Source: Elusimicrobiales bacterium (GTDB taxonomy: Bacteria > Elusimicrobiota > Elusimicrobia > Elusimicrobiales > UBA9959). Taken from it: 64,000 bases of DNA. Positions 4,018-55,131 of this stretch are shown one piece after another. A program made the position numbers and the translations under genes. Every line of letters starts with the position of its first letter. Position 1 is the stretch's first letter. The DNA lies in assembly GCA_028688015.1 (NCBI GenBank), contig JAQTZB010000001.1, positions 1 to 64,000 of the forward strand, read 5' to 3'. The notes below the pieces were generated by a model. It worked only from the letters and a program-made list of their open reading frames with translations. It had not been told where the DNA came from and searched no databases.

Positions 4018-7000
4018 ATGAACGAGAATTTCGACGAATCCTCCCTTAACGAGGCCGCCATTAACGACGTGGAAACGGCCCGCCTGGCTTTGCGCTGGGC
4101 GCTGGACAAGATCCGCGCGCTGCACGAGGAAGACCTCAAGACCCGCCAGAACCTGCAGGAGAAGAACAGTCAGGTGGCGTTCCTCGAGAACCAGCTGAAG
4201 GCCAAGAACACCGAGATCGACCGCTCCGCCCGCGTGCACGAGGAGGAGATGAAGTCCCGCCAGTCGTCGATGGAGTACCAGTTCCGCGCGCGCCTGGAGC
4301 GCCTGACCGAGCGCGAGAAGGAACTGGAAGACAAGATCTCCAAGAACGAGGAGGTGCTCAAGCAGAAGGAGCTCCGCCTCGAGTCCGATTACCAGAAGAA
4401 GGCTGAAGACCTCCGCGGCCGCTGGGCCAGCGTGGAGGGGGAACTCTGGCAGCTGCGGCAGGAGCAGTTGGCCAAGCAGCAGGAGTTCGAGCGCGTCTAC
4501 GGCGCCCGCCTGGAAGAGGAGAAAAAAAGATTCGCCGAGGAGGCCGCCCAGCAGAAAACGATGCTGGAGGAGACCTACCGCAACCGCGTGGAGGAGCTCG
4601 AGAAACGCGAGCGCTCCGTCAGCGACGAGCTGAAGAAGCAGGAGGCCGTGCTGAAGTGGGCCAAGGACAGCTGGCAGAAGGACACCGAGGAGCGCGAGCG
4701 CGTCCTGAAGCAGAAAGACCTGGAAATCGACAAGAAGATCCTGGAGAAGAACCAGGAGATAGACGATTACAAGGTAAAGCTTTCGCTGCTCGAGAAGCAG
4801 CTCAAGGACCTGCCCGAGGCCGTAAGGCGCCGCGACGAGGACCTGAACCGCTACAAGGACGCCATCGGCAGCCTGGAGAGCGTCATCCGCACCCTGGAGA
4901 ACGAGAAGAAGAACCAGCAGGCCGACTACGAAGGCCGCCTCACCAAGGCGGGCGAGGCCGTGGAGCACGAGCGCAGCCGCTTCCGCGAGATGGAAGCCGA
5001 GATCCCGAGGCGCCTGAAGATCGCCGTGGAGCACGAGCGCAACCGCTTCTCCGAGAAGCTGCAGGAGATAGAGCGCGGCTACCGCGAAGACCTGGGCAAG
5101 CGCCAGGACGAGGTGGATTACCTGCAGCGCAACCTGCACACTTTCGAAGAGACCATAAAGACCCTGCAGGCCGAGCGCGAGGCCATGGCGCACAAGGTCG
5201 AGCAGCTGCAGACCCAGTATAACGTGCGGCAGGAGGAGTTCGCTTTCCGCGAGAAGCAGCTGCAGTCCGAATACGACGTGCGCCTCAAGGTGGAGATGGA
5301 GAAGCATACCGCCGCGCTGCGCTCCGAGATAGAGACCGCCGGCCGCATCTACGAGGACAGCCTCCGCCTGAAGGTGGAGGAGATCTCCCACCTGCGCCGC
5401 GACATAGACGAACTTTCCAAGGAAAAGAACGCGGCCAAGGAACAGCAGGCCGAGCTGCGCCGCCAGCTGGAGGCCGCTTCCGAGCGCGCCGTCGCGGAGC
5501 AGGACGCGCTACGGGCCAAGTTTAAAGCCGAGAACGACCAGCGGCTGGCCGAGGCTGCCGCGCACGCCGAGCGGGCCCGCGCCGCTGAGAAACAGAAATT
5601 TGCCGACGAACTGGAAGGCCGCGCCGGAGAGTTCAAGGCCGAGGTCGCCCGCAAGGACGACGAGATCGTGGCCCTGCGCATGGCCGTGCAGAAGGCAGGC
5701 GAAGAGCAGCGCATGCTGCGGCAGAAAGCCGGCGAAGAGCTGAAAGCCGCCGTGCTGGAAGAAAAGAACCGCGCCGCAGCCGAGCTGGAGGACCGGGTCT
5801 CGCGCCTGGCCGCCACCATAAAGATGCGCGACGAGAAGATTGCCGAGCTCTCCTCCGCCCTCGAGGCGGCCAGGATAGAGCGCGAGGAGCTGGTGCTCCT
5901 GGAGCGCGAGCGCCTGCAGCGCATCTACGCCGAGAAGGAGAAGGCCATAGACGAGGAACTGGCCGCCCGCGACGCCGAGCTGCTGCGCGCCCGCGAAGCC
6001 GCCGCCAAGGCCGGCGCCGAGAAGGAGGCCGCGGCCCACGCCGCCGCCGCCGACCGCCGCGGCCTGGAAGAAAAGATCACCGCCCTCACGGTGCGCCTGA
6101 CCGAAGAGGAAGCCGCGGCCGGAGTGAAGCTGGACGCCGCGCTGCGCCGCGAGGCGGACCGCTACGCGGAAATTATCGACCGCAAGAACAAGGAGCTGGA
6201 GGCGGCGGCGCAGGTGCGCCAGTCGCAGGAGGACGCCTACCGCAAGACGCTGGCCGATTTCCGCTCCAGCCTCTCCGAGGCGCTGGGCAAGTTCGAGGCG
6301 CTGAAAGCCACCGCCGAGGAGCGGCAGGCCCAGGTGCTGGCCCTGCAGGCCGAGCTGGCCCAGGAGAAGAAGCAGGCCGGCGACCAGGGGTCCGCGCTCT
6401 CCGCGCGCCTCTCCGAGAAGGAAAAACTTTACCGCGACCTGCGCCTGGAGCACGACGACCTCAAGGAGGCCTTTGAAGAGGAAGTGAAGGCCGCCGAGCG
6501 CCGCTATAACGACGCGCTGCTGAAGCTGCGCGCTACCGAGGAGCAGAAGGCCGCCAGGGACAAGCAGATAGAGGCCCTGAAGCGCGATGGAGAGCTGCTG
6601 CGCGCCGAGAACCAGCGCCGCGAGCACGAGGCGGCCGAGCTGAAATCCTCCGTCTCCAAACAGGTGGAGACCGAGCGCCGCGAGATGCACGCCTCCGGCG
6701 AACGCCGCGCGCACGAGTACGCCCAGAAGGAAAAGTCCCTGCTCTCCGAGATCTCCTCTCTGCGCGATATCGCCAACTCCAAGGACATCCTGCTGGAGAA
6801 GCAGAAAGTGCAGTACGAAGAAGCGCGCAACACCGCCGACCGCCTGAAGGCCGCCCTGGAAGAGGAGCGGGCCAGGCAGACCGAGGCCGAGGCAGACCGC
6901 GCCCTCCAGTACGAAGACTACGACGAGCGCCTGGCCGCCATGGCCGAGCGCGAAAAGGCGCTGTCCGGCGAGCTCCTGGCCTTGAAGAAAACCCTGTCGG

Positions 7001-44930: not shown

Positions 44931-45413
44931 TTACTTCTTCTTGAAGAGCGGCTCGTCCTTCTGCGGCTTGTTGCACAGGCCGTGGGCCCGGCAGGTCTCC
45001 ACGCAGACTTCCGGCAGCTTCAGCTCTGAGCGGGTGTCGCAATCGGTGTAATCCTCGGCCATCTCGTTGATGCGCTTGCGGTCGTCGTGGCTGATGGCGC
45101 TGAAAGAGATGCCGTTCATGAACACGCCGCCCTTGTCTTTTACCCAGGAGATCTTGCCGGTCACCGGCATTTCCTTCACGCCGTTGAGCTTGAGCAGGAT
45201 GTTAAGTTCTTTCGTGTGGGGCGGGGCCATGAAGGTGATCAGGCGCATGCCGCCGGCGGAGAGGTCCGCCAGGATGGCGGGCTGGGGCACGGGCTTGCCG
45301 TGGGCGTCCTCGGTGAAGAACTCTATTTCCACGGGCTCCAGGATGCCGTGCAGGATGGGCAGGCGCACATGCTCGCGCCTTTCTTTAAGTACCTTGCTGA
45401 TTTTTTTGGTCAT
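44931..45413 (-). CDS. PilZ-domain (c-di-GMP-binding) protein with Cys-rich tail
   Basis: 160 residues. The PilZ motifs are present: RREHVRLP (RxxxR) near residue 12 and DLSAGGMRL (D/NxSxxG) near residue 49. The C-terminal ~35 residues hold four Cys (CDTRS..., VCVETCRAHGLCN), a possible metal or disulfide site not typical of simple PilZ proteins. It likely responds to cyclic di-GMP; the partner is unknown, but type IV pili are encoded elsewhere in the window. It overlaps the miaB stop by 4 bases. Confidence 0.88.
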   Translation of the reverse strand: MTKKISKVLKERREHVRLPILHGILEPVEIEFFTEDAHGKPVPQPAILADLSAGGMRLITFMAPPHTKELNILLKLNGVKEMPVTGKISWVKDKGGVFMNGISFSAISHDDRKRINEMAEDYTDCDTRSELKLPEVCVETCRAHGLCNKPQKDEPLFKKK

Positions 45414-46702
45414 TGTATTTTCCCGTTTAAAGTATTTTTTTCGGCCCCGGAGACCAGTACTTCGGCCATCTGCCCGGGCGTCCCGCCGGCCTTTACTCTC
45501 ACGGCGAAATTCCCGGAGGCACGGCCATATGTTTCGGTCTCGAAAAGAACTTCCTCTATTTTACCAATTCTTTCATTTAATACAAGCCGCGAATTTTCCT
45601 TCACCGCGGCCAGCAGTTTTTCCAGGCGGGTCTCCATGACGGTTTCGCTTATGGCGGCGGCCATTTCCGGCTTGTCCGTGCGCGGCGAATACTTGAAACA
45701 GTACGCCAGCGAGAAGCGCCCTTCTTTGACCAGCAACAGCGTGTCTTTGAAATCTTCCTCTGTTTCCCCCGGGTAGCCCACAATGAAGTCCGTGGAGACG
45801 GCCAGCCCCGGCGCGGCCGCGCGCAGGCGCTCCAGCAGGGCAAGGTAACCGGAGCGCGTGTAGCCGCGGCGCATCAGTTTCAGTATCCGGTCGGAGCCGC
45901 TCTGCACCGGCAGGTGCATATGGCGCGCCAGCTTCGGTTCAGCCGCCAGCAGCTGCAGAAAGGCGTCGTCGAAGTAGATCGGGTGCGGGCTCATGAAGCG
46001 CAGCCGCTGCAGCCCCGGCAGCGCGAGGACTTTCCTTAAGAGTTCGGAGAACGTGGTCTTACCGTACTTATAGGAATTAACCGTCTGCCCCAGCAGCACT
46101 ATCTCTTTGGCCCCTGACTTAAGCTTGTCGGCCGCGTCCGCCAGCACCGCATCCGGCGACAGACAGACAGCGGGGCCGCGCACGGCGGGCACTATGCAGT
46201 AGGAGCACTTAAGCGAGCAGCCGCGCATTATTGTAGTGTAGGCGGTCTGCGGCGAGCGGTAGATGTTCTGGTGGGAAGTCTCGGTTTCCGGGGATGGCCC
46301 TAGCTGGGCGATGAGCGAATCTTCGAACTGCTCTATGGCCTTGGCGCCCACCACCTCGTCCACGAAGGGGAATTTCTGCTTGAGGTACTTCCCCCCCAGC
46401 TTCTGTGCCGCGCAGCCCACCACAAAAAGTTTGCCGTCCGGGCGCTTCTCTTTCCACACGCGCAGGCGGCCTATCTGCGAGATGGCCTTGTCTTCGGCCT
46501 TCTGCCGCACGGTGCAGGTGTTTACCACCACGGCATCGGCCTTCTTGATATCTTCGGTGAGCGCATACCCGCGCCGGCGAAAAGCCGCCGCGATGTTCTC
46601 CGAATCTGCCTCGTTCATCTGGCATCCGAAAGTAATGATACAGACCTTCCGATTCGAACCGCTCTGCGGGCCGCAGGCCCGCTGATTTTGCTGTTTCTGC
46701 AT
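45410..46702 (-). CDS. miaB: tRNA-2-methylthio-N6-dimethylallyladenosine synthase MiaB
   Basis: 430 residues. An N-terminal UPF0004 domain carries three cluster Cys (ITFGCQMNEADSE, VVNTCTVRQKAEDK, VVGCAAQ). The radical SAM motif is RGCSLKCSYCIVP, and the TRAM domain is at the C-terminus. Methylthiolates i6A37 in tRNA. The first 26 codons, the ribosome site (GAGGAA) and ~80 upstream bases lie inside a 162-bp repeat that also occurs inverted at 48573-48734. The N-terminal extension MQKQQNQRACGPQSGSNRK is longer than usual. The recombinase reading frame overlaps its start. Confidence 0.96.
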   Translation of the reverse strand: MQKQQNQRACGPQSGSNRKVCIITFGCQMNEADSENIAAAFRRRGYALTEDIKKADAVVVNTCTVRQKAEDKAISQIGRLRVWKEKRPDGKLFVVGCAAQKLGGKYLKQKFPFVDEVVGAKAIEQFEDSLIAQLGPSPETETSHQNIYRSPQTAYTTIMRGCSLKCSYCIVPAVRGPAVCLSPDAVLADAADKLKSGAKEIVLLGQTVNSYKYGKTTFSELLRKVLALPGLQRLRFMSPHPIYFDDAFLQLLAAEPKLARHMHLPVQSGSDRILKLMRRGYTRSGYLALLERLRAAAPGLAVSTDFIVGYPGETEEDFKDTLLLVKEGRFSLAYCFKYSPRTDKPEMAAAISETVMETRLEKLLAAVKENSRLVLNERIGKIEEVLFETETYGRASGNFAVRVKAGGTPGQMAEVLVSGAEKNTLNGKIQ

Positions 46703-48246
46703 TTTTTGTTTTCCTCAAAAAAATAATAATTAAATGGCGCAAAAAATTCTGCATTTCGGAGTTTTTTGCCCGAGATTTTGATGTTACTGAACACCAGGTT
46801 GAGCAGACGCTTGCGCTCGCTGGGACTAAGCTGTTTCTGCCCCGGTGCTACGTCGGAGACGTAGCTACGGGCCATCGCGAGATAGTCCGCGAATTTTTCG
46901 CGGTCTATCTCGCGCAACTCGTAATAAGCGGCGAGTTTTTTCAGCTCCTCGCCCTCCTTCATCAGATCGCGGTTCTTCTCCTCAAAAACTTCCTTGGACA
47001 TGAGGTTTTCTATGTAGGCGTCGGTCAGCTTGCCCTGTCTGGCCAGGTTGGCCTTCAACTTCTCTTTTACCTCGTCCCGGGCCTTTTTTTCGTCCTCCGT
47101 GGGCGGAGGGGCCGGCAAAGTCATGTTCGTCCATTGGCTCTGTATCTTGGGGTTACGGAGCATGGTTTCCAGCAGCTCGGCCACCTGCGGTTCCAGTTCC
47201 TCGGCCTTTGCGTTGGCGTTGCCGCAGGCTTTATAGGCGCTGGACCGCGAGGTACAACGATACCATTTCTTGCTGGCCCCGGTGCGGTGGTTGGAAACGA
47301 TGGTCGCGCCGATATACTTGCGGTGGCACTTCTCGCAATAGAGCACCCCGGACAGAACGTACTTCTCGCTCCTGGCCTTGCGGTGACGCACACCCTTTTC
47401 AGCGAGGATTTTTTGCGCTTGCGCAAAAACCTCCTCGCTGATTATCGGTTTATGCCTGCCCTGCGCCACTATGATCTTGTCCGGCGCGTTCTTAACGTAC
47501 TTGTAGCCCTTGGGAGTCTTTTTGGTCTTGTCGTAGTGGTGGGCGTTCCAGACCAGCTTGCCGATGTATATCCGGTTCCTGAGGATGTCCCCTATAACCT
47601 TTGAACCGAAATAGTTGCCTCTGCGATTCTTTAAGCCTTCCTTGGCTAAGGTGCTGCCTATGCTCCAGGTGCTGTGCCCCTCGTTGTACATGGCGAAGAT
47701 GCGCCGCACAACCTCGGCCTCGCTCTCCACCACCTCAAGCAGCTTGGCCGGCTTGTTGTAGACGTAGCCGTAGGGCGCGAAGCGCGAGCCCTGCCAGTTG
47801 CCCTGCTGAACGCCTTTGACCATGCCGGGGAATACGCGCTCGGCTATGCGGTTGCGCTCGAACTCCGCGAAACTGCCAAGCTGCTGGAACATCAGCTTGC
47901 CGGCCGAGGTTGTGGTATCAAAGGGTTCCCCCGCCGACTTGAAGCCGACCTCATATTTGGATAACTGATCCACCAGGTGTAAAAGGTCTTTGAGGTTGCG
48001 GCTGAACCTGTCCAGCTTGGATACCAATACAAGCCCGAACTTGCCGCCTTTGGCGTCAGCCATAAGTGCGGCAAGCGCGGGCCGGTCGGACGAATAACCG
48101 CTAATGCCGTTGTCTGAGTAAACCTTGTAGACCTCAAGGCCTTCGCGCTTAGCGAAAGCTTCAAGGGTTTCCCGCTGCACCTCAAGGGAATAGCCTTCCC
48201 TGGCCTGGTCTTCCGTCGAGACTCTCAAGTATAGGGCTGTTTTCAT
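46615..48246 (-). CDS. Large serine recombinase
   Basis: 543 residues from the ATG at 48246 (AAGGTAG ribosome site). Resolvase domain: YLRVSTEDQAREGYSLEVQ with catalytic Ser, then LVSKLDRFSRNLKDL. A Recombinase domain (GYVYNKPAKLLEVVESEAEVVRRIFAMY), a zinc-ribbon (LSGVLYCEKCHRKYIG ... CTSRSSAYKACGN), and a C-terminal coiled coil follow. It cuts and rejoins DNA through a phosphoserine link, for integration, excision or inversion. The last ~50 codons lie in the left 162-bp repeat and overlap miaB in another frame. If the enclosed segment inverted, the frame would stay open into a slightly different tail. Confidence 0.93.
   Translation of the reverse strand: MKTALYLRVSTEDQAREGYSLEVQRETLEAFAKREGLEVYKVYSDNGISGYSSDRPALAALMADAKGGKFGLVLVSKLDRFSRNLKDLLHLVDQLSKYEVGFKSAGEPFDTTTSAGKLMFQQLGSFAEFERNRIAERVFPGMVKGVQQGNWQGSRFAPYGYVYNKPAKLLEVVESEAEVVRRIFAMYNEGHSTWSIGSTLAKEGLKNRRGNYFGSKVIGDILRNRIYIGKLVWNAHHYDKTKKTPKGYKYVKNAPDKIIVAQGRHKPIISEEVFAQAQKILAEKGVRHRKARSEKYVLSGVLYCEKCHRKYIGATIVSNHRTGASKKWYRCTSRSSAYKACGNANAKAEELEPQVAELLETMLRNPKIQSQWTNMTLPAPPPTEDEKKARDEVKEKLKANLARQGKLTDAYIENLMSKEVFEEKNRDLMKEGEELKKLAAYYELREIDREKFADYLAMARSYVSDVAPGQKQLSPSERKRLLNLVFSNIKISGKKLRNAEFFAPFNYYFFEENKKCRNSKISGPAARRAVRIGRSVSLLSDAR
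46623..46784 (-). repeat. Left copy of 162-bp perfect inverted repeat
   Basis: Reverse complement identical, base for base, to 48573-48734. It contains the miaB upstream region, ribosome site and codons 1-26, and the recombinase 3' end. Confidence 0.97.
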
Positions 48247-48248
48247 GG

Positions 48249-48422
48249 CTACCTTATGGTTTCCTTCCACTTCTTAAGCTTGCGCATGTCCGCCTCGGTG
48301 AATACCGGGAAGTCTCTGTAATCGCGTCCGGGTTTTGCCCAGCCGCGCTTGATCCAGTTGTAGAGGGTCTGCCGCGTTATGCGCAGCAGTTTGGCGGCCT
48401 CAACCATGTTGTAGCGCTTCAT
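48249..48422 (-). CDS. Small helix-turn-helix (excisionase/MerR-like) protein
   Basis: 57 residues: MKRYNMVEAAKLLRITRQTLYNWIKRGW is a compact HTH_17/excisionase helix-turn-helix, followed by a basic tail (MRKLKKWKETIR). It likely binds recombination sites or regulates the recombinase that starts 2 bases downstream. TATAAT (48434-48429) ends 6 bases before the ATG, so its message is leaderless. Confidence 0.85.
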   Translation of the reverse strand: MKRYNMVEAAKLLRITRQTLYNWIKRGWAKPGRDYRDFPVFTEADMRKLKKWKETIR

Positions 48423-48428
48423 AGGTAA

Positions 48429-48434
48429 ATTATA
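48429..48434 (-). promoter_or_regulatory. -10 box of the helix-turn-helix/recombinase operon
   Basis: TATAAT on the minus strand, six bases before ATG 48422. No clear -35. Confidence 0.6.
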
Positions 48435-48459
48435 CACCATTTTACACCTGTTGGGAGTC

Positions 48460-48560
48460 CGCCGGGGGGCGCGACCAAACATTAACAGAAAAGCCCGCCA
48501 GGGCCGAGCGAATGCGAGGCCGGGGCGGGTTTTTAATAAACCAAGGTGCGCCCCCCGGCG
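48460..48560 (+). terminator. Plus-strand terminator hairpin inside a 13-bp inverted repeat
   Basis: CGCCGGGGGGCGC (48460-48472) and its complement (48548-48560) enclose a GC-rich hairpin (CCCGCC near 48494, GGCGGG near 48526) followed by TTTTT (48530-48534) on the plus strand. It points toward the right 162-bp repeat. Confidence 0.6.
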
Positions 48561-48572
48561 TGGTGTTCGGGG

Positions 48573-48734
48573 ACATCAAAATCTCGGGCAAAAAACTCCG
48601 AAATGCAGAATTTTTTGCGCCATTTAATTATTATTTTTTTGAGGAAAACAAAAAATGCAGAAACAGCAAAATCAGCGGGCCTGCGGCCCGCAGAGCGGTT
48701 CGAATCGGAAGGTCTGTATCATTACTTTCGGATG
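48573..48734 (+). repeat. Right copy of 162-bp perfect inverted repeat
   Basis: Identical to the reverse complement of 46623-46784. Beyond the repeat the flanks differ, except that TGGTGTTC precedes both copies four bases out. It is followed by a 10-bp inverted repeat (TCGGATGAAC, 48728-48737, with 48761-48770). Confidence 0.97.
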
Positions 48735-48735
48735 A
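48655..48735 (+). pseudogene. Truncated inverted copy of the miaB 5' end
   Basis: Within the right repeat the miaB ribosome site, ATG and codons 1-26 are reproduced exactly. TGA then replaces the TGC of the cluster Cys codon, because the repeat ends there. Confidence 0.9.
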
Positions 48736-49249
48736 ACTTTGGCTCCGCTTACATCGCACCGTTCATCCGATCCTGAAAACATTGTACTGCTGATCTTACC
48801 CGCGAGAAGCCGCTCGCGGGCTCGGCACTACGCGCCTTCGCTCCGCTCGCTCGCCGCAGGGTGGCCGCTTGCCGGCCACTATGCGGCTCCCCTGCCGTCT
48901 GGAAGCGGTAGGCCGAGCTTATCCGCGAGATGTCGTCGCAGGCGTGGCCACGCAGCGCGGCCCCGCACTGCTCCTTGCCGCGAGAAGCGGGTTCGCAAGG
49001 CTCGGCACTACGCGCCTTCGCTCTTGCTCCGCCGGTAGGCTGCATCTTATAACAACCTCCTTCTGCGCGGCCAGCCGGCCCCCAAAACCGGGGGCCTTGG
49101 CGGGCCGCTCCCGGGCCGCAACAGCGGCCCGTACAGCGCAGAATTTAATTCTTTTCTTATTTTTAAATTATGGCCACCGATAAGGATTTACCTTATTTCT
49201 GTTTCCCCTCTCCGAGTGGCAATAATTTTTAGGTAGGCTAGTCGGTGTG
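48735..49249. other. Non-coding region with direct repeats and GC-rich hairpins
   Basis: No supported gene. A 25-bp direct repeat (GGCTCGGCACTACGCGCCTT and on) occurs at 48819-48843 and 48999-49023, within ~45-bp related blocks. Hairpins occur at ~49075-49098 (GGCCCCC/GGGGGCC) and ~49100-49128 (GGGCCGCT/AGCGGCCC). Reading rightward, the DNA becomes AT-rich from 49140. Confidence 0.6.
48819..49023 (+). repeat. Pair of 25-bp exact direct repeats
   Basis: Copies at 48819-48843 and 48999-49023, 180 bp apart, each preceded by CCGCGAGAAGC. Confidence 0.9.
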
Positions 49250-49574: not shown

Positions 49575-50612
49575 CTACGCAGATTTTAAAATCACAATGC
49601 TTTCGCGCAATTCTTGCGCGGTGTCATGTAAATTCTCATGCTTCCATAGCTGGGCGGAACTCCGTAACCGTCTAATCGTCTGTACTTTTTCAAGTTGCCA
49701 TCCTGTGTTTTCCGCAATATCTGCGATTATTAGGTCCACGGGGACAATAACACCGGCATAAGCGGATGTCGCGACAACAATTTTAAGGGTGGCATTTGTA
49801 TTTGCCTTTGATTTTAAAGCGATTAATAGCCTCTCTAAGTCTTCAAAATACGCCTGTATCATCGCCGGGATGCGATTGCTCCATAAATCGTCTTTCTTCG
49901 CTTCGACTTCTTTTAGTATCTTGGAATATAAAACGCCAAAATCATTACGAGTTGGCCGTTCCCAATTCGCTTGCACATGCGAGCGAAGCGTCTTTAGCCG
50001 GATTTTCATTAGTTCCTGATTATTGGCGACAAAGCCTGAAAGGAAAAGTTCAGGACGATAAACATCGGAGTAATCAAAGGTGTTAAGATATGGCGGGGAC
50101 GTGATGCACAGATCGAATTTTCGTGCGTCCTTGTATTCCGATAGGGTGCGAGAATCCATTCTGACAATCTTAGACAGTCCCTTTTGTATTGGGGCTGCTT
50201 CGAGGTCTTCTTCCATCATATCGCAATATGCCTCAAATTGTGATGTGAGGGATTCGACGTTGAAGCATTTGTAGCTCTTTAGTCTTTTGTATCGCAGGCA
50301 CTTCCCATCTGGGTAAGCATTACAGTTCTCCATTGTTGCGCGCAACAGGGCTAAACGAAACAATGATTGCTGCCCAGAAGTGACTTGTTCTGTGGAGTCC
50401 CATCCACCGGCAAAAGATCTAAACACTGAACGGTTAAAAAGCCATTTATCTTTCCCCTTTCCCTCACAGAAAGTGGAGTAATCCTCTAACGGCGTTTTTA
50501 ATGGATTCTTTAACCCTTTAAGAATTGTTGTGCGATTAGCCGCAAAACTTTTTATGTTTACCTGCTTTAATTTGGTTTGGCCGACTGTTCTGTCTAGTCT
50601 AAACTGAAACAT
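49575..50612 (-). CDS. DNA methyltransferase, probably lacking its N-terminal part
   Basis: 345 residues. The catalytic motif IV is clear (DLCITSPPYLNTFDYSDVYRPELFL, near 170-194), typical of N4-cytosine/N6-adenine methylases of the TSPPY group. A recognisable SAM-binding motif I (DPFxGxGT), expected before motif IV in this order, is not seen. The ATG is 12 bases from the end of an insertion sequence, and a stop codon lies two codons upstream. The likely reading is that the insertion removed the 5' part, leaving a remnant. Low GC compared with core genes. Confidence 0.7.
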   Translation of the reverse strand: MFQFRLDRTVGQTKLKQVNIKSFAANRTTILKGLKNPLKTPLEDYSTFCEGKGKDKWLFNRSVFRSFAGGWDSTEQVTSGQQSLFRLALLRATMENCNAYPDGKCLRYKRLKSYKCFNVESLTSQFEAYCDMMEEDLEAAPIQKGLSKIVRMDSRTLSEYKDARKFDLCITSPPYLNTFDYSDVYRPELFLSGFVANNQELMKIRLKTLRSHVQANWERPTRNDFGVLYSKILKEVEAKKDDLWSNRIPAMIQAYFEDLERLLIALKSKANTNATLKIVVATSAYAGVIVPVDLIIADIAENTGWQLEKVQTIRRLRSSAQLWKHENLHDTAQELRESIVILKSA

Positions 50613-51570
50613 TTTTTAGGCTAGTTCTGTTGACACTTTCAGCCTTTTCTCCTGCTTCCCACTCTTCATACAACCCTAGTCTTTTTAGCATTTCTCGAAC
50701 AGCTTTCCTATGCAGTCTTTCGCCTTTTAGTGGCGCCAGACCGCGTTTTACTTCTTCCAGCATTTTCAACACTTCCTGCCTGTTTATGCGCTCTATCCCG
50801 TTGCACTTGTGATAGACAGTAGCCGAAGTCTTATAACCCAAAACAGCTCTCGGCTTCAAGTTGTTCAGCATCAGCATCCCTTCCCTGAGCTCTTTCTCAA
50901 GTCCGCTGTCTGAAACCTCATCTGCCACCGGGATCAACCAGTTTTTAATCTCGCGGTTGTCACGCTCGGTCCTGCCATTGGTCCATGGCGCCCTACGTTG
51001 CGTGGGATAACCAATTATCCCGTGCCTCTTCAGGAACGCCTGGAACTTCTCGCTCGTGAAGGCTGACCCGTGGTCATACTTCCAAACCAAAGGCGCTCTT
51101 CCCATGCAACTCACCAAGCCTTCCGCGTGCTCTACCACCGCCTCCGCGGTCTCCGGGCAGATGCCCCAGCCAGGCCTATACCGCGAATGCTCGTCTAGCG
51201 TCTTCAGCAACTTTCGCTTGCCGGGCACTTCGGTGAAGTCCGACGACCAGAATACGTCCCGCGCCAGCACCTTCGTTCTGCCCGTGTGCGGCGGCGCTTT
51301 TCTCGTCGGCCTCGGACCCCGCACTTCTGCAAGCACCTTTGCCACACTGCCGTGGCTCACGCCCACGACCGAAGCGATACTGCGTGTGTCCCACGTCGAC
51401 CGGTTCTCCCGGTCTATCTCCAGGATCTTCGCGCGCACCGCCTCCGTGACGCGCCGGGCGCGGCCGACGGCGGCTTTGAACCTGCCGCCGGCCCAGCGCC
51501 AGTGCGTGCTGCGGCTCACTCCCCACAGCCCGGCGAATTCTTTCACCGTCGCCCCGCTCTCTTTTTCCAA
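50599..51570 (-). CDS. IS3-type transposase OrfB (frameshift product of orfAB)
   Basis: The frame shown is 323 residues; a TTG at 51570 is the formal start. DDE core: WSSDFTEVPGKRKLLKTLDEHSRY, YDHGSAFTSEKFQAFLKRHGI and WTNGRTERDNREIKNWL. The frame is open upstream to an A8 run at 51619-51626 within orfA, so a -1 slip would give a ~460-residue OrfAB. Its stop lies 26 bases outside the insertion sequence, and the tail overlaps the methyltransferase start. Confidence 0.85.
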   Translation of the reverse strand: MEKESGATVKEFAGLWGVSRSTHWRWAGGRFKAAVGRARRVTEAVRAKILEIDRENRSTWDTRSIASVVGVSHGSVAKVLAEVRGPRPTRKAPPHTGRTKVLARDVFWSSDFTEVPGKRKLLKTLDEHSRYRPGWGICPETAEAVVEHAEGLVSCMGRAPLVWKYDHGSAFTSEKFQAFLKRHGIIGYPTQRRAPWTNGRTERDNREIKNWLIPVADEVSDSGLEKELREGMLMLNNLKPRAVLGYKTSATVYHKCNGIERINRQEVLKMLEEVKRGLAPLKGERLHRKAVREMLKRLGLYEEWEAGEKAESVNRTSLKNVSV

Positions 51571-51605
51571 AGACCAGTCACTTCGGTACAGTTCCCGCGT
51601 TTCTT

Positions 51606-51986
51606 TCAGCTTTTGCCGTTTTTTTTAATGTCACTGCCCCAGCCGTGGCGCCTGATTATCCGTTTCGCCACTCCCAGCACCAGCTTCAGACGGCTTTTCT
51701 GCTGCCTCAACTGCGCATTCTCCCGGGTCAGCTTCTCCACCTGCTCCGCCAGGCGCTTGGCTTCCTCCGCCGGCTCCCGCGCCGGCTTCGGCCCCGGCTT
51801 GCCCTGCTCCAATGCCATCAGCGACGCCTCCCTTACCTGTCTCATCCATCGGTAAAATAATTCCCGCGACACTCCCACCTGCCGGCACAGCTCCGTCGAT
51901 GGCTCTTCCCTCGCTACCCCCAACAACACCAGCTCCAACCTCTCCACCGGGCTCGCCAACTTCGCCTGTGCCATTCTCACCTCCAA
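51606..51986 (-). CDS. IS3-type OrfA helix-turn-helix protein
   Basis: 126 residues. Helix-turn-helix PSTELCRQVGVSRELFYRWMRQVREASL and a leucine-zipper-like coil (LAEQVEKLTRENAQLRQQKSRLKLVLGVAKRII), the usual OrfA layout. It ends just after the A8 slippery run. It overlaps the 3' part of the other transposase gene by 356 bp in a different frame. Confidence 0.85.
   Translation of the reverse strand: MEVRMAQAKLASPVERLELVLLGVAREEPSTELCRQVGVSRELFYRWMRQVREASLMALEQGKPGPKPAREPAEEAKRLAEQVEKLTRENAQLRQQKSRLKLVLGVAKRIIRRHGWGSDIKKNGKS
51619..51626 (-). other. Programmed -1 frameshift site (A8)
   Basis: AAAAAAAAC on the minus strand, at codons ATT AAA AAA AAC. Slipping back one base joins orfA to orfB in frame with no intervening stop. 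Confidence 0.75.
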
Positions 51987-53067
51987 AACCTGATTCTACC
52001 TTTTCGGCCAGCATCACCTGCGCGTCTTTCGCCACCACACGCAGCTCCCGCCCGCCAATGTTGCCCACCAGGTATGTCGGCGCACTGTAGCCAGGCACAG
52101 GCACCGGCGAAGTCTCCACTTTCTCCGTGTTCGCCGCAATGATCTGCTTTACCTGGTCGCCCACTCTGTAGAACCGGTCCGAAGGAATCAGGTTGCCTAT
52201 CCCCTGATGCGGCCGTTTGAAGTTGTAATACTCGATGTATTCCCCGATCTTTTCTTTAGCCTCCTCAAACGTCGACACCGGCGTCTTCTGCAGGCACTCC
52301 TGTAAAAGGTTGCGCCAGAACGACTCTATCTTGCCCTGTGTCTGCGGGTGGTAGGGACGGCTCCTGATGTGACGGATCCCCAATTTCGTCAGCATGTCGG
52401 TGAACTGGCTCTTGCCGCGCCAACTGTGGTACTGGCGCCCGTTGTCCGACAGCACTTCCTTCGGCATCCCGTGTTTCTCTATGGCCGCACGGAATACCTC
52501 CTGGACGTTGGCCGTGGTTTGGAAGCGATACAGTCCCCAGCCAGTTATAAACCGGCTGTTATCGTCCAGAAAACCTATCACGTAGACCCGGTACTGCCCC
52601 TTCAGCATGAAGGTCATGATGTCCGTTTGCCAAAGATCGTTAGGGTTCGCGCGCTCGAAGGTCCGCGCCCGGCTTGGCCGGTTTTTCCGTCGGAAACGCA
52701 CCTCCTGCGGGCCGTGCCCCTGCCGTCGCAACAGTTTGCGCACCGTTTCGCGGGCCAGGCTTAAAAAGCCATGCCGGAACAGCACCCCCTGTACTTTGCT
52801 TATTCCGGCTTCCGGGTCGGATTTCAAAACTTCCCCGACCACCTGCGCGGCGGCCTGCGCTTTGGCGTTGCGGCTTCTGGTCGTGCTGCCGTTAGGTAAC
52901 GGCTCCAGACCGGCCAGGCCATTTGCCTCATACCGTCTAGTCCAGCGGATTACCGCAACGGGACTCACTTTAAAAAGTTGCGACACTTCTTTTAGTGTGA
53001 GGCCCTTTTGCCGACTTTCCACTACCTGAAGCTTTTCCGATATGGAATACGTTTTGTTGACACTCAT
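51631..53067 (-). CDS. IS481-like DDE transposase with out-of-frame C-terminal extension
   Basis: 478 residues. Helix-turn-helix (ISEKLQVVESRQKGLTLKEVSQLFKVSPVAVIRWTRRYEANG), then DDE core NDLWQTDIMTFM, VLSDNGRQYHS and PYHPQTQGKIESFWRNLLQE with FKRPHQGIGNL. From about residue 360 the sequence becomes Gly/Ala/Glu-rich low complexity because it runs through orfA in another frame; this tail may not be functional. AGGAGG ribosome site. The terminal motif TGTTGACAC also covers its second and third codons. Confidence 0.88.
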   Translation of the reverse strand: MSVNKTYSISEKLQVVESRQKGLTLKEVSQLFKVSPVAVIRWTRRYEANGLAGLEPLPNGSTTRSRNAKAQAAAQVVGEVLKSDPEAGISKVQGVLFRHGFLSLARETVRKLLRRQGHGPQEVRFRRKNRPSRARTFERANPNDLWQTDIMTFMLKGQYRVYVIGFLDDNSRFITGWGLYRFQTTANVQEVFRAAIEKHGMPKEVLSDNGRQYHSWRGKSQFTDMLTKLGIRHIRSRPYHPQTQGKIESFWRNLLQECLQKTPVSTFEEAKEKIGEYIEYYNFKRPHQGIGNLIPSDRFYRVGDQVKQIIAANTEKVETSPVPVPGYSAPTYLVGNIGGRELRVVAKDAQVMLAEKVESGFGGENGTGEVGEPGGEVGAGVVGGSEGRAIDGAVPAGGSVAGIILPMDETGKGGVADGIGAGQAGAEAGAGAGGGSQAPGGAGGEADPGECAVEAAEKPSEAGAGSGETDNQAPRLGQ

Positions 53068-53165: not shown

Positions 53166-53771
53166 TTAATTGCTTTTTGACGTCCAGAACCCCTCAAATA
53201 TGTAACCGATCTTGAATCCCAGCGCGGACTTCAGCGTCCCCGCCTTCCCACCACCAACGTTATCCAGGTCTATGTCGGTAAGTCGGTAGAAAATATCAAA
53301 AGTCAGCCCTGTAGGGGTGTCGGCGTATTCGTCTGTCGTGTACAGTAACCCTGCGGAAATAACCGGCGCGGCGTAAAGCGTTGTGTCTGCCAGCCCAAGG
53401 TCAGCGAATGCCGACGCTGTGTATCTCAAAGGCTTTCCCTGGACTTTGGGAGTCATATATTCCATGCCAAGCAGGAGTTCCAGGAGATAAAACGTGTTTT
53501 TCCCGGTGCTGTTGCTGTCGACCTTTATGCTCTGGAGTTGCAACCCGCCGGTCCTGGAGAACGTCTCGTTGCCAACCGCCCGCAACCCAAATCCCCAAGG
53601 CTTTACGCTTTCTGTCCCGTCCCCGGAGATGTTAAGGTCCTGCGCCGCAGGCAGGATCATGTAATACTCATTGGCTGAAACCCATTTCCAGATTGGCTTG
53701 CTCTCAGCTGCAAAAAGAAATGGCGGGGTCCCGGCCAGCAAAAGGATTAGGATGGGAAATGATCTCTTCAT
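53166..53771 (-). CDS. Small outer-membrane beta-barrel-like protein
   Basis: 201 residues from the ATG at 53771, which opens into a signal peptide (MKRSFPILILLLAGTPPFLFA). The body alternates in beta-strand fashion (YTASAFADLGLADTTLYAAPVISAGLLY, SALGFKIGYIFEGFW). No family was recognised. Its 3' end lies ~50 bases from the insertion sequence. It follows the 53785-54666 gene by 13 bases and may be co-transcribed. Confidence 0.65.
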   Translation of the reverse strand: MKRSFPILILLLAGTPPFLFAAESKPIWKWVSANEYYMILPAAQDLNISGDGTESVKPWGFGLRAVGNETFSRTGGLQLQSIKVDSNSTGKNTFYLLELLLGMEYMTPKVQGKPLRYTASAFADLGLADTTLYAAPVISAGLLYTTDEYADTPTGLTFDIFYRLTDIDLDNVGGGKAGTLKSALGFKIGYIFEGFWTSKSN

Positions 53772-53784
53772 GGCGTCTCCGTAA

Positions 53785-54666
53785 CTAGTTAAACTTGTAA
53801 ATACACTTCGAGCCGACTTCAAGCACTACGGGAATATTCTTATCATCCAGCATTAGCTTGAATGTCGGCGGATTCGCGTATTTCCTGTCCGGCGGCAAAG
53901 AACTTTGCCAGGTATTGAAATTAGCTTTAACTGCTTTTTCCATGTCCCGGAAGTAATAAGCCCACCTGTCGTGAGCCATAACAACGCGGATATTTGTTCC
54001 ATTAGAGGCCATGCCTCCACCGATGGAGGTGTAAACCTTATTGTCAGACAACTGGACGCAAGCCTGAATGTGGGCTTTCCTGAGTTGCGCGTGTTCTTTC
54101 TCTGTGAACTTCTGGGATAGCCCGACGACACCTTTTAACTCATACGGAGCCAGTAAGTGCGGCCAGTTCTTCAGCATTTCCTCCAACAGCTGCCTGTTGG
54201 TCCATGATCCATGAGGCAGCACGGCAACCATGTAAAACGTGTCAGGCAGAACATGCGCGAATAGAAGCGGACCTGTGCGTTCGGTGAAGCCGGCGCGACC
54301 GACTTTAGTGCTTAGGTGAAGGTGGTGGAGACCCCAATCATTGAGAAGAGAATCGTTGTAGTCTAGATCGAGGAAAAACTTGCTGAGATGTGGTACTAAG
54401 GATTTCCCGGAGGCCGCTTTTCGTTCTATCTCGTCGATGGCTTTTTGATATTTTGCATCGCATGAGAACCCTTTGGCTTTATGCACCTTGCGCGGTTGTG
54501 GCGCGATCTCCCTCAATTTTAGATTGAGGTATTTTACAGCTACTTCAAATTGCGTGTCTTTAGGGTTTGTTTTAAAGCCACCTGCGTGAAGCAAGCCGCG
54601 GAGAATCTCGATCCAGTCGGAATATAGATCGATTTTAATATTTGGTGCTGTATTGCCGGTAGTCAT
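53785..54666 (-). CDS. Cytoplasmic protein of unknown function with HHLHL motif
   Basis: 293 residues, no signal or membrane segment. A conserved-looking motif LNDWGLHHLHLSTKVGRAGFTERTGPLLFAHV lies near residues 108-140, followed by FYMVAVLPHGSWTNRQLLEEML. The His cluster and acidic residues could form a nuclease or metal site, but this is inference. Codon use and GC match the accessory island, so a defence or mobile-element role is possible. A weak ribosome site (GGGGGAAAAG) precedes it. Confidence 0.6.
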   Translation of the reverse strand: MTTGNTAPNIKIDLYSDWIEILRGLLHAGGFKTNPKDTQFEVAVKYLNLKLREIAPQPRKVHKAKGFSCDAKYQKAIDEIERKAASGKSLVPHLSKFFLDLDYNDSLLNDWGLHHLHLSTKVGRAGFTERTGPLLFAHVLPDTFYMVAVLPHGSWTNRQLLEEMLKNWPHLLAPYELKGVVGLSQKFTEKEHAQLRKAHIQACVQLSDNKVYTSIGGGMASNGTNIRVVMAHDRWAYYFRDMEKAVKANFNTWQSSLPPDRKYANPPTFKLMLDDKNIPVVLEVGSKCIYKFN

Positions 54667-54708: not shown

Positions 54709-55131
54709 TTAAGTACGCTTTGCTCTGTATTCCGCAGCTTTTAGCCGGGCGGCGGCGCGCCGGAGCGCGGCGTTGGCTTCGTCCAGGTCCAGGTCCGCCC
54801 CGCGCACGTTGATGCTTTCCTTCGCTTTCTTGTGCGCCTGCCGGGCGCGTTCTTCGTTGACCTCTTCGGCCAGTTCCGCTGCTTCCGCCAGGACCATCAC
54901 TTTGTTGAGATGTATTTCAGCGAATCCTCTAAGGACGGCGAAAACTTCTCGGTGCATTCCGTCGCGGTAACGCAGTATGCCCTCTTTAAGTTGCACCACA
55001 GAGGAGGCGTGCCCAGGCAGTATCCCCATCTCGCCGCCGAAAGCCGGGAGGGTGACCGAGTCCACTGCCTTTGCGTCAAGTGCGGTCTTCTCCGGGGTTA
55101 CTATTGTCAGCAATAAGCGTGATTGGCTCAT
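54709..55131 (-). CDS. atpC: F1Fo ATP synthase epsilon subunit
   Basis: 140 residues. N-terminal beta-sandwich (LLLTIVTPEKTALDAKAVDSVTLPAFGGEMGILPGHAS) and C-terminal two-helix domain (EEVNEERARQAHKKAKESINVRG ... ANAALRRAAARLKAAE). The subunit couples F1 rotation and can inhibit ATPase activity. No other ATP synthase gene lies upstream within 9 kb, so it has been separated from its operon or is a second copy. It overlaps the preceding unknown gene by 4 bases (ATGA), so the two are translated together. Confidence 0.93.
   Translation of the reverse strand: MSQSRLLLTIVTPEKTALDAKAVDSVTLPAFGGEMGILPGHASSVVQLKEGILRYRDGMHREVFAVLRGFAEIHLNKVMVLAEAAELAEEVNEERARQAHKKAKESINVRGADLDLDEANAALRRAAARLKAAEYRAKRT

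Follow-up and report, generated by a model that had tools for sequence, protein, structure and literature searches.

Invertible promoters and segments of the Hin and Mpi type carry their own recombinase between inverted repeats by the start of a gene. SCC/SCCmec and the Enterococcus cassette chromosome are mobilised by CcrAB or CcrC and use an attB in rlmH. Islands associated with dusA occupy the beginning of a tRNA-modification gene, whose own 5′ end they shift away and substitute with sequence of the element (PMC4482086). In mycobacteriophage BPs, attP lies inside a coding gene and integration shortens the C-terminus of the encoded protein (PMC4557955).

The locus described here lies in a window of 64 kb, the first part of an 808-kb contig from a 3.34-Mb genome, and compares in part with each of these systems. 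The source is taken to be an Elusimicrobiota bacterium, as deposited Elusimicrobia MAGs are among the genomes of its genus. Like Hin and Mpi, it places a recombinase between inverted repeats adjoining a gene start, but the recombinase is large rather than a small invertase, the arms are long and coding, orientation is strongly biased and there is evidence of chromosomal integration. As in SCC, a large serine recombinase similar to CcrB/CcrC is found, a conserved RNA-modification gene provides the fixed site, cassettes stand in tandem, and the cargo is variable and includes defence-related genes (PMC6222049). It nevertheless differs from SCC in inserting at the 5′ end of miaB rather than the 3′ end of rlmH/orfX, in replacing the N-terminus of its target, in having attP within the recombinase gene and in carrying a second attP-like site in inverted orientation. 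The 5′-end replacement in a tRNA-modification gene recalls the dusA islands, but those use tyrosine integrases in Proteobacteria whereas the protein here is a serine recombinase and not a tyrosine integrase; the available portion of that report describes neither inverted att arms nor a recombinase C-terminus swap (PMC4482086). BPs likewise has an attP in a coding gene and C-terminal shortening upon integration, but there the repressor is split and its long form bears a degradation tag, while here it is the recombinase that is split (PMC4557955). The locus is a variant of SCC- and dusA-type islands with integration-dependent truncation; it is like SCC in how it spreads and like the dusA islands in replacing a 5′ end, but falls outside the defining features of both. 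In the literature searched, we found no combination of an attP in a recombinase gene with an inverted second site. The repeats very probably serve as attachment-site arms for an integrative cassette carrying a Ccr-like large serine recombinase and using miaB as its attB.

The inverted repeats and the recombinase module

The sequence-only reading had described a perfect 162-bp inverted repeat around a recombinase, and direct comparison bears this out: positions 46623-46784 are the exact reverse complement of 48573-48734, an identity for which chance is ruled out. With mismatches allowed, the repeat grows inward to 174 nt at 98% (46623-46796 and 48561-48734). Its outer edge is abrupt, with the very next base differing and zero outward growth. 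The 1788-bp interior holds the recombinase, a small HTH gene and a GC-rich hairpin with a T-run (about 48492-48534), also as that reading had it.

The left arm, read as attL (46623-46796, minus strand), carries the recombinase gene's 3′ end and, in another frame, the beginning of miaB with its ribosome-binding site, start codon and first codons. The miaB gene (45410-46702, minus strand), whose product scores above the TIGR01574 cut-off, takes its first ~26 codons (MQKQQNQRACGPQSGSNRKVCIITFG) from the element and has its native body from CQMN onwards. At the arm/miaB junction stands the core TTTCGGATG (46623-46631, minus strand), which is common to all junctions; judging from these junctions, the crossover point is within or near it. 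The replacement miaB start has a variable stretch (46660-46690 and its equivalents) that in several loci forms a GC-rich palindrome, with fold z values of -3.9 and -2.9 in two and near zero in others. A conserved RNA hairpin in the arm was found in only some loci.

The recombinase (46615-48243, minus strand; 542 aa in its integrated form, ending in SDAR and a stop inside miaB) matches PF00239, PF07508 and PF13408, all above gathering scores, which places it among the large serine recombinases. It also matched the TP901-1, YokA and A118 integrases in phmmer searches. Its best NCBIfam similarity was to CcrB/CcrC (CcrB E 1e-65), but scores of 222.5 bits for CcrB and 168.2 for CcrC against cut-offs of 900 do not make it an equivalog of ccrA, ccrB or ccrC. 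The small HTH or excisionase-like gene (48249-48422, minus strand) matches HTH_17 and falls below the TIGR01764 cut-off; its putative start, MKRYNMVEAAK, was chosen from conservation, and its product is a possible directionality factor. A conserved GC-rich hairpin or terminator with T-runs on both sides (48467-48553) follows; it is present at every element copy, with minus-strand terminator-like matches. The right arm (48561-48734, plus strand) is the inverted copy of the left, and its miaB frame meets a TGA at the repeat edge. It ends in the core TTTCGGATG of an inverted attP-like site (48726-48734, plus strand), the other half of which is a tail of ~455 bp (48735-49190, plus strand). The first codons of this tail encode an alternative recombinase C-terminus, DELWLRLHRTVHPILKTLYC and a stop.

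Junctions at miaB and the tandem array

On the left, the core runs into miaB at codons ITFG^CQMN, and on the right it runs into the tail. The contig holds further copies of the tail (83.3-83.8, 86.8-87.2, 93.5-93.9 and 108.1-108.6 kb), and the core recurs between a tail and other sequence at 83.8, 87.2, 91.4 and 108.6 kb. After three of these cores comes a miaB 5′ end: MQKPEKPQNQGPRNRPNKAVFIITFG at 83.8 kb (S1), PTTKKVHIITFG with a GTG start at 87.2 kb (S2) and KKVHIITFG, also with GTG, at 108.6 kb (S3). After the core at 91.4 kb comes the arm of a second recombinase element (E2, 91.3-93.9 kb). Fused in silico to the miaB body, the S1, S2 and S3 ends all gave intact N-termini, S3 yielding VKKVHIITFGCQMN. 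The core junctions at 46.6, 83.8, 87.2, 91.4 and 108.6 kb have the same orientation and form tandem direct att repeats.

A search of relatives for the empty site, proposed with the sequence-only reading, was successful. The genus yielded 29 miaB loci. Those of G012, G005, G013 and G026 begin with a short native sequence (PTTKKVHIITFG or KKVHIITFG) to which no arm is fused, and many others start MQK... as the element arms do. The attL/attR-like junctions, together with an apparently intact attB in element-free relatives, give the pattern that marks serine-integrase insertion. The distance from miaB to its conserved flank (~124-133 kb here) is about 9-12 kb in G012, G016 and G001 and ~78 kb here, as serial insertion at one site predicts. 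Genome G025 has two tandem elements, of which the outer sits within the inner one's attL.

These observations suggest how the cassette would integrate. Recombination at TTTCGGATG would leave the recombinase gene fused by its 3′ end to miaB at codon ~27. The arm would restore miaB because its second frame holds a ribosome-binding site and a start codon followed by ~26 substitute codons. The gene's original 5′ end would move to the far end of the cassette, and serial insertions at miaB would have built the ~78-kb island. Among the alternatives listed in the sequence-only reading, an insertion that duplicates the start of miaB came closer to this, except that the element appears to bring its own 5′ end and the native one is displaced along the contig. 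Sites, displaced 5′ ends, native sites, tandem array, C-terminus difference and one flipped relative can be read in the assemblies themselves; the integration events behind them (attP × attB) were presumably catalysed by this recombinase. As two native-type displaced 5′ ends (S2 and S3) share one array, at least one must have arrived with an element. The tail at S1 is closer to the tail of E2 than to that of the first element (E1), and the first cassette may be composite; cassette borders within the 46.6-108.6 kb array are putative.

Insertion would also change the recombinase itself. Past the arm and core, its frame ends in SDAR and a stop when it enters miaB, as opposed to DELWxRxxRTxYKFLKTLY and a stop when it enters the tail. 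The same division holds among relatives: miaB-joined recombinases end in S(D/A)(A/V)(R/K) with a stop overlapping miaB, and copies without a miaB junction end in a conserved [DE]LWxRxxRTxYxFLKxLY. The tail peptide is also present in recombinases ~50% identical (DEWVQTYRTTLLFLKGLFQ, DEWLDAYRMTLCFLKELFQ). Across nine distinct tails, differences by codon position numbered 246/140/271 and single-change codons were 131 synonymous and 151 non-synonymous, counts that, from non-independent pairs, suggest moderate constraint on the sequence. In a model of the longer form, residues 540-559 fold as a helix (pLDDT 76-77) and are preceded by a linker of pLDDT 35-39; the model's overall pTM of 0.39 makes domain placement unreliable. 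Insertion would thus trade a tail-coded C-terminal helix for SDAR, a swap that we infer alters recombinase activity.

Orientation of the recombinase module

The second attP-like site (right arm, core and tail) lies inverted upstream of the HTH gene and so allows the ~1.8-kb recombinase module to take either orientation, with a complete miaB 5′ end provided by either arm. Of the repeat-bearing loci in which miaB is attached and both arms could be seen, at least 19 have the recombinase reading into miaB (E1, G025a, G003, G017, G004, G019, G024, G030, G023, G018, G028, G150, G159, G149, L109, L113, L114, L115 and L123), as opposed to one flipped locus. In the latter (L136 in G155) the order is miaB, arm, terminator, HTH gene, recombinase, arm and contig end; its arms are 99% alike, the terminator-side arm joins miaB and the recombinase points away. 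Both module orientations exist between species. The origin of the G155 flip is ambiguous because in-place inversion and integration through a second attP-like site leave the same local junctions, and how the module comes to be flipped is a step that we infer. We sought the far flank of this module, but its contig stops in the arm and the sole other arm in the genome is a decayed remnant. That remnant (L203, G155:C14) is almost directly joined to an OmpW-like gene, with the tail mostly gone.

In the switch put forward by the sequence-only reading as a possibility, the recombinase would flip the module so that miaB is joined alternately to the recombinase promoter or placed behind the terminator, giving phase-variable tRNA methylthiolation. 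That reading had the geometry right, and the flipped form exists in G155. Inverted sites flank a regulatory segment, the sequence layout of a phase-variation switch; the arms are identical, a bidirectional-looking terminator stands at one module end, and zero minus-strand terminator-like matches lie between the recombinase and miaB. The 19 to 1 bias, however, speaks against phase variation of miaB and led us to downgrade a simple switch as the main reading. Serine integrases are described as leaving other pairings, attL with attP for instance, unrecombined unless a factor is present (PMC3783163). Both arms also carry the full miaB start, which means that translation would remain possible either way, and the G155 arrangement could also stem from integration through the second attP-like site. 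An inversion switch on miaB is possible but unlikely. It is more doubtful still that one inversion toggles both the truncated and full-length recombinase and the miaB-promoter link, thereby setting cassette mobility and tRNA A37 methylthiolation.

Alternatively, a circle with two inverted attP-like sites could integrate via either, its orientation being set at that moment with no later flipping. The right arm, core and tail hold every attP part predicted from attL and attR, copy b of G025 has arm-core-tail on both its borders, and G155 would be accounted for. Yet the strong one-way bias would require unequal use of the two sites, and the other flank in G155 is unread where the contig stops inside the arm. 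On this evidence, fixed orientation from dual sites is conceivable though somewhat improbable.

A second arm without function is about as tentative an alternative. Here, likeness between arms would come from RecA-dependent recombination or gene conversion, with inversion a rare accident. In 14 of 15 loci the left and right arms agree at 0.88-1.0, G019 being the exception at 0.76, and arms of loci in different genomes agree at a mean of 0.74, values from a fixed 164-nt window that exceeds the true arm in some loci and from a set in which some close genomes share arms. The simplest reading of these comparisons is that arms travel and homogenise together. Such co-variation within loci fits passive arms, as do the rarity of inversion and the absence of the second arm in several relatives. 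On the other hand, inverted arms near 140-177 nt, several of them 100% alike, recur in distant lineages, which suggests maintenance.

The sequence-only reading had also allowed for an assembly artefact in which one repeat is chimeric. Many relatives' contigs do end at the right arm, but such breaks are expected at multi-copy tails, and the contig studied here runs 760 kb further. Independent assemblies of many species have the same layout with their own arm sequences; we reject a chimera, which is exceedingly improbable.

Distribution and cargo

Recombinase relatives that are 44-84% identical overlap the miaB 5′ end, always at one codon, in members of Elusimicrobiota and Omnitrophota, among the latter the closed genome of Velamenicoccus archaeovorus, and in one Auribacterota MAG. 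A strong recombinase relative is present in 39 of 384 genomes sampled from the phylum to which Velamenicoccus belongs, and it reads into miaB at most inspected loci. Few of the inspected loci in that phylum have an inverted arm, and in most Omnitrophota none was detected in the sequence searched upstream of the recombinase at miaB. The perfect inverted repeat is thus a feature of part of the family, and the second site is not needed for targeting miaB. Our literature search found no report of miaB as a serine-recombinase site in Elusimicrobiota, Omnitrophota or Auribacterota. A phage origin was considered and rejected: no relative was found among viral contigs, and plasmid relatives are only about 30-36% identical.

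If the integrative reading is true, mobile cassettes have repeatedly given miaB a new N-terminus in two or more poorly studied phyla, and the recombinase gene serves both as the attachment site and as a reserve 5′ end for its target. It would provide an attP/attB pair of natural origin for a new large-serine-recombinase group and would allow a test of whether integration edits the recombinase through loss of its C-terminal helix, thereby locking the element in. Element-type miaB starts would also serve as a marker of how islands have moved over time in Elusimicrobiota and Omnitrophota.

An OmpW-like gene with no Pfam match (53166-53822; 13995-14612 in L006) follows the tail in E1, E2, both G025 elements, G026 and G001 and is a conserved companion. 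Between the tail and this gene, a methyltransferase-like ORF is followed by two transposase ORFs (rve) at 49575-53067. The genes of the 49-83 kb stretch may be accessory cargo rather than ordinary core chromosome. The inositol-phosphate synthase there occurs in only 6 of 32 genus genomes, a rarity that favours accessory cargo, but an AtpC-like gene (54709-55131) lies within the island as well. A PD-T4-7-like anti-phage defence gene stands beside the element at 53785-54666 (PADLOC E about 1e-43). The genes near the window's element fit a defence-carrying island, with exact cassette borders uncertain. In L006, a small second cassette has an AAA_14/DUF4143 gene (5277-6497; PADLOC PDC-S01).
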